Source: Phycisphaeraceae bacterium
GTDB taxonomy: Bacteria > Planctomycetota > Phycisphaerae > Phycisphaerales > Phycisphaeraceae
Assembly: GCA_020849625.1 (NCBI GenBank)
Contig: JADLFV010000046.1
Coordinates: forward strand, 1-64,000
Reading direction: 5' to 3'
DNA: 64,000 nt
Positions 497-5,141 of this stretch are shown here, in pieces (position 1 is the first letter of the stretch; each line of letters opens with the position of its first letter). Made by a program: the position numbers and the translations under genes. The notes under the pieces are model-generated. The model was not told where the DNA came from, ran no database searches, and saw only the letters and a list, made by a program, of their open reading frames with translations.

Positions 497-1714
497 ATGG
501 TCGGCATGCCACCCGTCACACGTATCTACGACACCATGCTCGCGGAGCACCTGGTACAACACCGCCAGATGGCGCTGGTCAGTGGACCGCGGCAGGTCGG
601 TAAGACCACAACGTGCCGCAACCACGCCGACAGCTATGCCAACTGGGATAACACGGACGACCAGGCATCTGTCCTGGCTGGGCCGTCGGCCATGGCCGAG
701 AAACTGGGGCTCGAACGATTATCAGGGAAGCCGCCCGTCGCACTGTTCGACGAGCTGCACAAGTACCCCAGATGGAAGCAGTTTCTTAAGGGCTTCTATG
801 ACAGCTATGCCGATCGCGTTCGCGTTCTGGTCACTGGATCGAGTCGGCTCGATACGTACCGTCGCGTCGGTGACAGCCTGATGGGACGTTACTTCCTTTA
901 CCACATGCACCCATTCTCGGTCGCCGAAACTAGCTACCGCGAGTTACCCGATCCCAAACGCATCATCAGGATGCCGAAGAAGCCCAAGCCGGCTGACTTC
1001 GACGCCCTATGGGAGCACGGCGGCTATCCCGAACCGTTCCTCAAACGCGATCCGCGATTCAGTCGTCGCTGGCAGGCGCTGCGCACTCAGCAACTGCTTC
1101 GTGAGGACCTTCGTGACCTGACTCAGATTCAGCAGATCGACCAGATCAGCGTGCTGGCCAGGATGCTTGCCAGTCGTTCCGGAGCGCAGATTACCTTCAG
1201 TAGCTTGGCTAGGGATGTGCAGGTCTCTGTGGATACCGTTCGGCGTTGGGTGGAGACGCTCAACAGCCTGCACCACGGCTTTCTGATTAAGCCCTGGTTC
1301 AAGAACGTTACCCGCTCACTACGGAAGGAGCCGAAGTGGTTTCTGCGCGATTGGGCAGAGATCGAAGATCCGGGGAGCAGGGCTGAGACGTTCGTGGGGT
1401 GCCACCTGCTCAAAGCCGTCGATGGCTGGAACGACCTGGGCTTGGGCAAGTTCCAACTGGCCTACCTGCGCGATAAAGAGAAACGTGAGGTCGATTTCGC
1501 CGTGATCCGCGATGGTAGGCCGTGGTTTCTTGTGGAAGTCAAGCACAGCGAAGCATCACTCAGTCCGGCCCTGCGGAGTTTCCAGGATCAGATCAAAGCG
1601 CCCTTCGCCTTCCAGGTAGTCATCGACATGGACTACGTCGACGCCAACTGCTTCGCCAAGGTGCAAGGCCCGATGGTCGTGCCAGCCCGGACCTTCCTCT
1701 CGCAACTTGTTTGA
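497..1714 (+). CDS. AAA-family ATPase of the DUF4143 type
   Basis: A 405-residue P-loop ATPase. Walker A is GPRQVGKT at residues 30-37, and a Walker B-like VALFDE at 81-86 is followed by LHKYPRWKQFLKGFYD. A VTGSSRLD sensor stretch lies near 113-120. The C-terminal third carries REVDFAVIRDGRPWFLVEVK (D...ExK), a restriction-endonuclease-like signature usual for DUF4143 proteins. These are common in archaea and mobile-element-rich bacteria; their role is not settled, though links to toxin-antitoxin or element maintenance have been suggested. An upstream ATG-rich stretch allows starts at 497 or 506. The gene lies alone between IS remnants and was probably acquired by transfer. Confidence 0.85.
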   Translation: MVGMPPVTRIYDTMLAEHLVQHRQMALVSGPRQVGKTTTCRNHADSYANWDNTDDQASVLAGPSAMAEKLGLERLSGKPPVALFDELHKYPRWKQFLKGFYDSYADRVRVLVTGSSRLDTYRRVGDSLMGRYFLYHMHPFSVAETSYRELPDPKRIIRMPKKPKPADFDALWEHGGYPEPFLKRDPRFSRRWQALRTQQLLREDLRDLTQIQQIDQISVLARMLASRSGAQITFSSLARDVQVSVDTVRRWVETLNSLHHGFLIKPWFKNVTRSLRKEPKWFLRDWAEIEDPGSRAETFVGCHLLKAVDGWNDLGLGKFQLAYLRDKEKREVDFAVIRDGRPWFLVEVKHSEASLSPALRSFQDQIKAPFAFQVVIDMDYVDANCFAKVQGPMVVPARTFLSQLV

Positions 1715-1748
1715 TAGTTCCTTAAACAGAAAACAAACTTCTATCCTG

Positions 1749-1855
1749 ACTGGTTGACTGATGCCCAAGGCCCGGGCAATCCGCCGCTGCGACCAGCCTC
1801 GCTCATGTAATGTCAGAATCGAATGAACCTTAGCCACGCTCAGTTGGTTCGCCAT
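1749..1855 (-). pseudogene. istA: IS21-family IstA transposase, N-terminal fragment
   Basis: The first ~36 residues read MANQLSVAKVHSILTLHERG followed by WSQRRIARALGIS, the helix-turn-helix that opens IS21-family IstA proteins. After GIS the ORF continues into sequence antisense to the ATPase gene and no longer resembles IstA, so about 450 residues are lost. It sits in the correct orientation next to the IS21-like end repeats at 1913-1967, with its start 112 bases from the putative tip. Confidence 0.7.
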
Positions 1856-1912
1856 CGTCTGCCTCCAGCCCCGATACGGGGCCGGTTCAGACTACGCGAC
1901 GAACCCTCCTCA

Positions 1913-2020
1913 GTGGCTGGGTTTGAACGCGCCCATCGGTGGCTGGGGTTGGGCGCTCAGTGACAGCTGTCATTGAGCGGGTGAGAACCAGCCACGCATG
2001 TGCGGGTCATAACCAGCCAG
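1913..2020. repeat. IS21-like right and left ends joined head-to-tail, with four subterminal repeats
   Basis: A near-perfect 26-base palindrome at 1954-1979 has the core TGACAGCTGTCA (1961-1972) flanked by CGCTCA and TGAGCG, with one mismatched pair (1960/1973). Reading outward from the centre, each side holds two copies of a subterminal repeat ending in CCAGCCA(C/G): 1913-1931 and 1939-1956 on one side, 1977-1995 and 2001-2020 on the other. IS21-family elements are known to carry multiple terminal repeats, tips beginning TG, and to form tandem dimers with tips a few bases apart. Here the tips would be TGTCA with a GC spacer. An istA start lies on one side and an istB-like end on the other, both on the minus strand. 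Confidence 0.6.
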
Positions 2021-2041
2021 TTGTATGAGTGATCTTGTACC

Positions 2042-2152
2042 TCATTTCGATACCGTTTGGCAATCGTCCGCTTTCTTGGCCACGGTGTTTTTCTTCTCGT
2101 TGTCCGGCTCGCCGCGGTTGCGCAGGCGGTAGCTTCGGCCGGTGATGGTCAG
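2042..2152 (-). pseudogene. Putative IstB C-terminal fragment fused to the cas1 remnant
   Basis: After the Cas1-like part the same frame continues [20 protein letters not shown] and stops at 2042. The GxSYRLR motif resembles the C-terminal tail of IS21-family IstB ATPases (helper proteins). The stop lies about 75 bases from the putative right IS21 tip, where istB should end. Because only about 36 residues remain, the identification is tentative; it could simply be out-of-family readthrough. Confidence 0.45.
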
Positions 2153-2407
2153 CTCGGCCTTGTACAGGTCGGCTATGTCGTAAACGAAGGACAGTTGCTT
2201 GCCCGTGTGGATGAAGCCGATGGCGGGCGAGTAGCCAGCGGAGATGATGGCCGCGTGGACTAGGCCATATAGACAGGTGTTGGCAGCCGAGAGGGCGCGG
2301 TTGACCGGGTCGCCGGCGAACCACTCCTTGCGATTGTAGGTGCGGCCCTGCCAAGGCATGCCGCTGACCTTGGACGCCTCGGCGTAGGCCTTCCGTACGC
2401 GGATGAC
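2153..2407 (-). pseudogene. cas1: CRISPR-associated Cas1 (type I-E) fragment
   Basis: The minus frame reads [19 protein letters not shown], then [20 protein letters not shown], then [20 protein letters not shown]. This matches the C-terminal alpha-helical core of type I-E Cas1 integrase. The metal-binding His of FIHTG and both Asp of YDIAD (equivalent to E. coli H208, D218 and D221) are present, but the N-terminal half with the catalytic Glu is missing, as is the natural C-terminus. No other cas gene or CRISPR array is visible. This is a relic of a lost CRISPR locus, deleted by IS21 activity. Confidence 0.8.
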
Positions 2408-2456
2408 CGATCATCGAAAGTAAGCAAAGCCGCCATCAGGTGAACCGCAATAGGCG

Positions 2457-2525
2457 GGCCCTGCGATGTCAGTAAGTAGAGGCCAGCCAGCCAATGCCGC
2501 CATGTTCCGCTGTCACCGCAGGGCC
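2457..2525. other. Long inverted repeat downstream of the mannosidase gene
   Basis: Perfect 9-base arms GGCCCTGCG (2457-2465) and CGCAGGGCC (2517-2525) flank a 51-base loop. It follows the stop of the GH2 gene (minus strand) by about 19 bases. It could act as transcript end structure but has no T-tract, so a terminator role is only possible. Confidence 0.35.
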
Positions 2526-2543
2526 GGGTGTCTCGTCATGATT

Positions 2544-5141
2544 TTATAACTTGATAGGTGAATGGGAAGCCGCATCACCTGCCGTAAAATCAACAGCCTT
2601 AGTCGTGCCGTGTAAATCGATTGCGTGGAATATGAGGTCCGCAGGCACGTCGCCCGCACACTTGATCACCTTGGGCAACCCAGGGAGCAAGTCGAAATAA
2701 TTGTCGCTCAAAATTCTCTCTCCATCGTCCTGGTAATGGACACCGTGGGCGTAGGTGTCCGATGTCACAGTGATCTTTGAACCGCGGACCACACATTCAA
2801 TTGTCGGGTCGGCCAGGTCCAATTCGCGGTAGGGGCAAAGGTTCCACACACAGGGGATGGTTTCGATCCCATCGGCCTCTATGAAGACTGTATAAATCCA
2901 TTCATGGGGCGATCTGTCTGCGGAAGCCGGTATGCGATCGCGCGCGATTTCCTTCATGCTGTTCGACGGCACCACCACCGCCCTGGACCGGAACTCCGTG
3001 GATGATCCATCCACCGCCACCCACCCGTAGTGAACGGTCATCGACTGATCCACGAGCGAGTCATTCACGACGCGGGCGACCAGGTGCCCATCACGGGCGC
3101 GGACAATGGCCCGTACCGGGTTACAGGCGTTACGGATCCAGTAGTAGCTGGGCTTGCGTCGGAGATAATAGTCGATAGGAGTCCAGCCTGTCTCACCCCA
3201 GCAGTCATTGAACATCCAGATCAGGGCGCCCGCACAATCATCCATGGGATCGTGCTTGCGGAATCGTAGCGCCTCGATAGTCCGGCCATACATGACGGCC
3301 TGAAACATCTGGCCATAACGGATGTACTGCTCGAGTTCCAGCCCATCGGGATCGGCATAGTGATAGCGGATCGCCGCTGGGATGGTACCTTTCTCATAGG
3401 TGTTCGTGTGGCACTTCCATGCCAGGCTGTTCTTGTCGATTTCATCGGGTTTCAGGTACTGGCGAATCGAGGCCATGGTGCAGGGCCCGATGACGCCGTA
3501 CTCACTGACGAATCGCCCACGGCACTCATCGTACACTTCGTGCCGGTAGCGTCTGGTGACATCTTTGCTCATCGTTGCCTTATGCCACCAATGCACGTCG
3601 CCATCGATCTCGCAGTTGGGCGATGGCCCGCCCGCGGGACTACCCGGCCAATAGGGCCGGCTTGGGTCCAGATTCAGGCAAACCTCGGGCAAGATCTGCG
3701 AATAGATGTGCCGCCCACCCAGGATCAGGTCCGGGTGCGGGAAGTTGTGCTGCGCGTTGCCCCACCATTCGGCAAACGCCCAGGTGTTTTCATTGTTGGC
3801 GCACCACAGCACAATGGACGGGTGATGCCGCAACTGGCGGACGACCGCCTCGGCTTCCCGGCGGACCTTGTCGCGGAACTGCACGTCCTCATCAGGGTAG
3901 GCATAACAGGCGAACATAAAGTCCTGCCAAACCAGGATCCCGCGACGGTCACAGGCGTTATAGAAGTGTTCTGACTCATAGATCCCACCACCCCACACGC
4001 GGAGCATCGTCATATTGGCCTCGGCGGCATCCGCCACCAGGCGTTCATACTTTTCCCTGTCGACCCGGGCGGGGATGGCATCGGCGGGCACCCAGTTGCC
4101 ACCCCGGCAAAACACATCCTGGCCGTTGACCTGGAGGGCGAAACGGTGCCCCTCCGGCAGCGGCGAGCGGTCAATGGCTACCGTGCGTAGTCCGATCTGA
4201 CGAGTCCACGTGTCGCGTTCTACCCCATTGATGGTGGCCGTGATCTGCAGGGTGTAGAGCGGCTGCCGCCCCATTGTGTGGGGCCACCACAGTTGCGGTT
4301 TTGCAACAACTAGTGTCGTCCGCAGGCGCGTGATGCCGACCGGCAGCATCGTTACCAGTGTTGTGGAGCAGACTTCAACGCCTTCCGGATCGACCAGTGT
4401 CACGCGAGCGTCAGATGTGTGTTCCGCTGACGGATGCAGATTTTCCAGGTCGATTTCCACATGGACGTGGCATAGAGCGTGGTCTTCCTCCAGCGTACAC
4501 CAGTGTTTCACGTCGGATAGTCGCGCACACGAGTATCCGCGCAGTTCGACACCGCGCCAGATGCCGATATTGGGCAGCGCATCCACCCAGTCCCAGCCGT
4601 AGGAAAACTGGGGTTTACGCAGCTCAGGCGTGCCCTTAAAACTCTGACGGCTGGCATATATGTTCTCGGCTGAACGCTCGCATGTACGCTGGTCCCTGGC
4701 GCGCTCCGTGCCCACGGTCAGACGGACCACCAGCTCGTTTTTCCCATTGCATAAACTGTGGGTGACATCGAACACGGCCGGCACAAACGCGTTCTCGCTC
4801 GCACCGATCATGATCCCGTTCAGGAATATCTGCGCGTAGTAGTCCAGGCCCTGGAAGACCAGTTCCTTGATCTGCTCCCCGGCCACGTCAGCATCGACCA
4901 CGAAGCTGGTCCGATACCACCAGGAATGCTTCTCCGGCCAGCGGCAGGCCGGAGCGTTGGTGCTGACCAGCGGTTCCGGCATAAGGCCGGCCGCCATCAG
5001 ATCCACATGCACCTCTCCTGGCACCGTGGCCGTGATCCATCCGTCCACCCTGCTCAATACAGTCCGCAATCCGTCCGCACCAGCCTCAATCAAGGCTTCG
5101 TGTCGCAGTTGCCACGTCCCATTGATGCTCTGAACCTGCAT
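2544..5141 (-). CDS. Glycoside hydrolase family 2 beta-mannosidase
   Basis: An 865-residue protein of full family length, hydrolysing terminal beta-1,4-linked mannose from manno-oligosaccharides. Layout: N-terminal jelly-roll sugar-binding domain (about 1-200), Ig-like domain (200-320), TIM barrel (320-680) and C-terminal Ig-like domains. The acid/base Glu lies in WCANNEN (E451) and the nucleophile Glu in RFVSEYG (E547). The RVWGGGIYE stretch (381-389) is characteristic of beta-mannosidases rather than beta-galactosidases. No signal peptide is visible, so the enzyme is probably cytoplasmic and acts on imported oligosaccharides. It is the last gene of a minus-strand series with a lyxose/mannose isomerase-like gene, which suggests a mannan route. 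Confidence 0.9.
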   Translation of the reverse strand: MQVQSINGTWQLRHEALIEAGADGLRTVLSRVDGWITATVPGEVHVDLMAAGLMPEPLVSTNAPACRWPEKHSWWYRTSFVVDADVAGEQIKELVFQGLDYYAQIFLNGIMIGASENAFVPAVFDVTHSLCNGKNELVVRLTVGTERARDQRTCERSAENIYASRQSFKGTPELRKPQFSYGWDWVDALPNIGIWRGVELRGYSCARLSDVKHWCTLEEDHALCHVHVEIDLENLHPSAEHTSDARVTLVDPEGVEVCSTTLVTMLPVGITRLRTTLVVAKPQLWWPHTMGRQPLYTLQITATINGVERDTWTRQIGLRTVAIDRSPLPEGHRFALQVNGQDVFCRGGNWVPADAIPARVDREKYERLVADAAEANMTMLRVWGGGIYESEHFYNACDRRGILVWQDFMFACYAYPDEDVQFRDKVRREAEAVVRQLRHHPSIVLWCANNENTWAFAEWWGNAQHNFPHPDLILGGRHIYSQILPEVCLNLDPSRPYWPGSPAGGPSPNCEIDGDVHWWHKATMSKDVTRRYRHEVYDECRGRFVSEYGVIGPCTMASIRQYLKPDEIDKNSLAWKCHTNTYEKGTIPAAIRYHYADPDGLELEQYIRYGQMFQAVMYGRTIEALRFRKHDPMDDCAGALIWMFNDCWGETGWTPIDYYLRRKPSYYWIRNACNPVRAIVRARDGHLVARVVNDSLVDQSMTVHYGWVAVDGSSTEFRSRAVVVPSNSMKEIARDRIPASADRSPHEWIYTVFIEADGIETIPCVWNLCPYRELDLADPTIECVVRGSKITVTSDTYAHGVHYQDDGERILSDNYFDLLPGLPKVIKCAGDVPADLIFHAIDLHGTTKAVDFTAGDAASHSPIKL

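Follow-up and report, generated by a model that had tools for sequence, protein, structure and literature searches.

A probable decayed right-left junction of an IS21-family element in a Phycisphaeraceae bacterium

Organisation of the locus

The window (the whole stretch of 64,000 nucleotides that was analysed) carries remnants of istA and istB, both on the minus strand, with two abutted IS ends between them and a fragment of a cas1 gene fused to the istB side. The features are listed below by position in the window.

1757-1855, minus strand: 5' remnant of istA, approximately 33 codons; it aligns in DNA to the intact element of a related genome (G100) as far as 1774, with the break itself judged to lie between 1774 and 1757
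1912-1965, minus strand: left (istA-side) terminal region with tip TGTCA and repeats at 1940-1946 and 1914-1920, from alignment to the left ends of the intact G100 element and of G142:C525, and from 19 of 21 bases shared with a remnant on contig C27 of the same genome
1954-1979, no strand assigned: abutted IS21-family tips forming a 26-base imperfect palindrome with a GC spacer at 1966-1967, from the sequence itself
1968-2044, minus strand: right (istB-side) terminal region with tip TGACA and repeats at 1988-1994 and 2013-2019, istB stop included; it lies inside a 133-bp stretch with 93% identity to C27:55144-55276 and was aligned to the right end of the G100 element
2045-2152, minus strand: C-terminal remnant of istB, approximately 36 codons; the protein of 2045-2167 is 83% identical to the IstB tail on C27
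2144-2404, minus strand: internal fragment of a type I-E cas1 gene, fused in frame to the istB remnant, from a match to TIGR03638

The arms of the palindrome are 12 bp long with one mismatch and are separated by 2 bp, the tip letters being TGACA (1961-1965), GC (1966-1967) and TGTCA (1968-1972). Read along the minus strand, the order is the IstB C-terminus (2152-2042), the right end, GC, the left end and the istA start codon ATG at 1855. The subterminal repeats are TGGCTGG at 1914 and 1940, and CCAGCCA at 1988 and 2013, which gives a spacing of 26 bp on one side and 25 bp on the other; the direct repeats of IS21 are 23 bp apart according to an excerpt of PMC10122671. Inverted repeats ending in CA, as in the tips TGTCA/TGACA, together with several subterminal repeats (here two per side) are terminal features of the IS21 family, and a right end abutted head-to-tail to a left end across a few base pairs is the arrangement of a tandem-dimer junction. 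A preliminary description of this DNA had read the palindrome as a pair of IS tips set end to end and flanked on each side by two subterminal repeats, placed between an istB-like end and an istA start on the same strand, with both copies truncated, and all of this was borne out. The fusion to cas1 was absent from that description.

Directly beside the istA remnant lies an open AAA_14/DUF4143 ATPase gene of 405 amino acids (497-1714, plus strand). Close to the contig start, at 136-318, a C-terminal fragment of an IS3/IS481-type integrase core was seen.

An intact relative of the element

In the window's own genome a profile search brought up nothing above the cut-off of the IS21 transposase family; a single weak IstA match, of 31.1 bits, lies on contig C86. 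Any match to positions 1850-2045 was found in 5 of 400 genomes of the same order, the own genome included. In one of these, G100, which belongs to the same family, both arms of the window match approximately 2.5 kb apart and in proper order. The match delimits a full-length element of 2703 bp on contig C92 (L024, positions 784-3486) with complete istA and istB genes. Its IstA scores 244.6 bits against NF033546 (cut-off 160) and carries the rve and Mu-transpos_C_2 domains, and its IstB scores 245.2 bits against NF038214 (cut-off 200) and carries the IstB_IS21 domain. The intact relative therefore has the DDE transposase with a Mu-type C-terminal domain and, downstream of istA, the AAA+ helper by which the IS21 family is recognised.

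The tips of the G100 element are TGTCAGTGAGCGCCC on the left and GCGCTCATTGACA on the right, and they match both halves of the junction. The left arm of the window aligns over approximately 190 bp to the left end of this element, through the start of istA, and the right arm aligns to its right end. Tips, subterminal repeats and the istA start MANQLSVA are the same as in the window, whereas the G100 element is a complete single copy flanked by a 7-bp target duplication, GCCAAGC. The preliminary description had proposed to look for a full-length copy in the same genome and to compare its ends with the junction, a full-length element with deviating ends counting against the reading. No such copy over the cut-off was found in the own genome; one is present in the same-family genome G100, and there the ends agree with the junction.

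IS21-like elements of the IS1631 type from Bradyrhizobium have an IstA that is homologous to almost the entire G100 protein, with only approximately 33% protein identity among the listed best plasmid matches. A distant DNA search with positions 1740-2180 against plasmids returned no IS match; it gave cas1e matches in two records of one Streptomyces strain. Judged from these comparisons, the window's element belongs to an IS21 subgroup that is only distantly related to the plasmid elements in the search.

A second remnant in the same genome

When positions 1700-2100 were searched against the rest of the genome, the sole strong match was a right end on contig C27, which together with the adjoining istB end is 93% identical to the right arm of the window over 133 bp. 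The C27 remnant (L002, from 1501 to about 2060) is an internally deleted copy that has lost most of its interior. Its left tip lies approximately 560 bp from its right end, lacks the first tip base and has a local alignment score of 32 against the left arm of the window, versus 18 on the other strand. No target duplication was seen around this remnant. Unlike in the window, its ends stand at opposite sides of the remnant in ordinary order and are not abutted. Since both arms of the window match opposite ends of one C27 copy, both probably derive from one IS type, and the junction most likely joins the right and the left end of that single type (a homotypic junction).

Truncation of istA and istB and the join to cas1

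The istA-side alignment to the intact element stops at 1774 in DNA and, judged by eye, at about 1757 in protein. Taken alone, the istA remnant does not reach significance against the IS21 transposase model NF033546 (E 0.12). On the other side, the C27 IstB tail, to which the istB remnant was compared, matches NF038214 with an E value of 1.6e-20.

For the cas1 fragment, the match to TIGR03638 has an E value of 9.4e-36, or 6.3e-40 when the own genome was searched, a search in which it was the sole cas1e match at E 0.1. The join between istB and cas1 falls inside the 9 bases CTGACCATC (2144-2152) and keeps the frame. Compared with cas1 genes of the same order, the fragment has 78-84% DNA identity to 4 of 5 relatives and the similarity ends at the join or 4 bases past it: in three at the last base of CTGACCATC and in one four bases later. 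For the fifth, more distant relative it ends 16 bases earlier. The similarity to the istB of C27 starts within the same stretch where the similarity to cas1 stops. The other break in cas1 lies at about 2404, where the similarity to four of the five relatives begins.

The fusion of the IstB remnant to cas1 apparently arose at a 9-bp microhomology. Two of the five cas1 relatives carry the 9 bases unchanged, and the istB of C27 has one mismatch to them; this imperfect conservation leaves the mechanism inferred.

Chance level of the palindrome

Palindromes with arms of 12 bp, no more than one mismatch and a 0-4 base loop were counted. Simulating 64 kb with the first-order composition of the window 40 times gave a mean count of 1.3 versus 2 observed, and the two observed counts are one and the same object. 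The exact double tip occurs once in the 64-kb window and in none of 100 shuffles, the pattern having been chosen after the sequence was seen. By itself the quality of the palindrome is at chance level. Chance as the sole account is nevertheless ruled out by the homology of the two arms to IS ends at other sites, and it is this homology, rather than the palindrome, that makes the real evidence for a junction.

Target duplications and spacer length

Target duplications were measured in 12 copies of related elements, one in G100, six in G521 and five in G549. The G521 IstB is 68% identical to that of G100, and its six copies have duplications of 4, 4, 5, 6, 6 and 6 bp. For the more distant G549 element, whose IstB is 50% identical to that of G100 and whose tips differ, the values were 6, 6, 7, 0 and 0 bp. 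The target duplications expected of the IS21 family are accordingly seen in relatives, while in the window the outer ends have been lost. The spacer of the window (2 bp) is shorter than the duplications of G100 (7 bp) and of G521 (4-6 bp). In IS21, the joined ends are closer together than the length of the direct repeat, according to an excerpt of PMC3299598, and IS21 is named among the elements forming IS dimers in an excerpt of PMC9333248. A spacer this short is more readily explained by a dimer or circle junction than by a second insertion that landed there by chance.

Reading the window on the minus strand, the likeness to an IS21 tandem dimer lies in the sequence of right end, short spacer and left end in the same orientation, and in a spacer below the length of the target duplication. 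The difference is that the copies in the window are truncated and their outer ends gone, which makes the locus a relic rather than an active dimer. The tandem dimer of IS21 with its right-left junction was reportedly described by Reimmann and Haas in 1987. In IS21 dimers a promoter at the junction drives istA. The number of sigma-70-like sites in 1850-2100 was 0, versus a mean of 0.1 in shuffles, and a different consensus may be in use in this organism.

Origin of the junction

The process and the family are both known, and the locus is an ordinary mobile-element relic. Most likely it is what decay has left of a right-left (head-to-tail) junction of a single IS21-family element, made by transposition, with both sides deleted afterwards. 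The right end of one copy would have been joined to a left end, either that of a second copy or its own after circularisation, by transposition chemistry of the IstA type that left the 2-bp spacer. A deletion on one side would then have removed istA except for its first 33 or so codons. A separate deletion would have removed istB except for approximately the last 36 codons and joined the remainder to the cas1e fragment, apparently at the 9-bp microhomology. The sequences show what both ends are, how they are ordered and oriented, the spacer, the two truncations and the join to cas1; the transpositional origin and the order of events we infer. The matching ends of the G100 element and the C27 copy support the IS21 head-to-tail junction proposed in the preliminary description, the route by which it formed excepted. 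Since no working istA or istB surrounds the junction, it is unable to mobilise itself.

Because the outer ends of both copies are lost, a dimer, an integrated circle and a second insertion look the same at this site; with the outer target duplications gone as well, any evidence for a dimer, whose two copies would share one outer target duplication, is indirect. Two successive ordinary insertions, the second copy landing in the same orientation right beside the right end of the resident without any dimer or circle, would leave the identical order of right end, GC and left end, and according to an excerpt of PMC9333248 insertion beside its own inverted repeats is possible for IS30. For an untargeted insertion, however, to land precisely 2 bp away and leave both tips intact would be a coincidence. 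In the literature excerpts consulted no mention of own-end targeting by IS21 was found, and among the other elements discussed in the excerpt of PMC9333248 dual target specificity is documented for IS911 only. We regard successive insertions as unlikely.

Deletion joins are common at these remnants (at the istA break, at either end of the cas1 fragment and inside the C27 copy), and an IS-mediated or illegitimate deletion may likewise have brought together the right and the left end of formerly distant copies. Neither tip lacks even its outermost base, a precision not expected of a random deletion, and this route is considered improbable. Least probable of all is an assembly artefact joining two IS ends, for although the genome is a draft of 154 contigs, with the window starting at the first base of its contig and the site 2 kb from the contig end, the arms are only 72% alike and offer no shared stretch for an assembler to cross on, and the C27 right end, at 93%, is the lone strong match elsewhere in the genome to 1700-2100.

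A decayed junction made by transposition, as preferred here, leaves the understanding of IS21 unchanged. It suggests that right-left junctions of IS21, which are known as reactive intermediates, can endure after loss of both transposition genes, and it supplies the ends and an intact relative for the distant subgroup. A more far-reaching version, in which the locus is the fossil of an integrated IS21 intermediate whose reactive junction drove the local rearrangements, including a loss of type I-E CRISPR-Cas that left the cas1 fragment, appears to us a long shot.

Search for similar junctions

Scanning genome_contigs, a set that may omit records near the window's genome, for exactly abutted tips gave two stretches, neither of them an ist junction. 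These stretches, from Bifidobacterium miconis (L031) and from the MAG CPR1 (L032), were judged around the palindrome and by their lists of open reading frames, and were rejected as palindromes without adjoining CCAGCCA repeats or recognised ist reading frames. The same pattern gave no match in viral_contigs. The one-contig genome G521 has 11 left ends of its related element and no right-left junction at a gap of 0-12.

A survey of the phylum gave 119 IstA rows in 76 of 392 genomes, and no same-strand pair one element length apart was seen by eye. This is a weak negative, as no more than five candidates per genome were scored at an E limit of 1e-20 and drafts collapse repeats. The one close IstA pair (G619:C156) looks like a single broken gene. 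Among the papers listed in literature searches, at the level of titles and abstract starts, no fixed IS21 junction relic was found. The preliminary description had called a fixed junction unusual; this holds in so far as none was met elsewhere in the samples searched, which are small and include drafts that hide tandem repeats.

Two side observations were made in these searches. Positions 2240-2360 of the Bifidobacterium miconis stretch carry abutted TGACA/TGTCA inverted repeats and, judged by eye, a further copy of the motif, and are possibly a small repeat element. On G142:C505 (L026, positions 1-565) an open istA fragment is followed within approximately 70 bases by an IS end at 510-565, with istB missing; this is probably another internally deleted copy.
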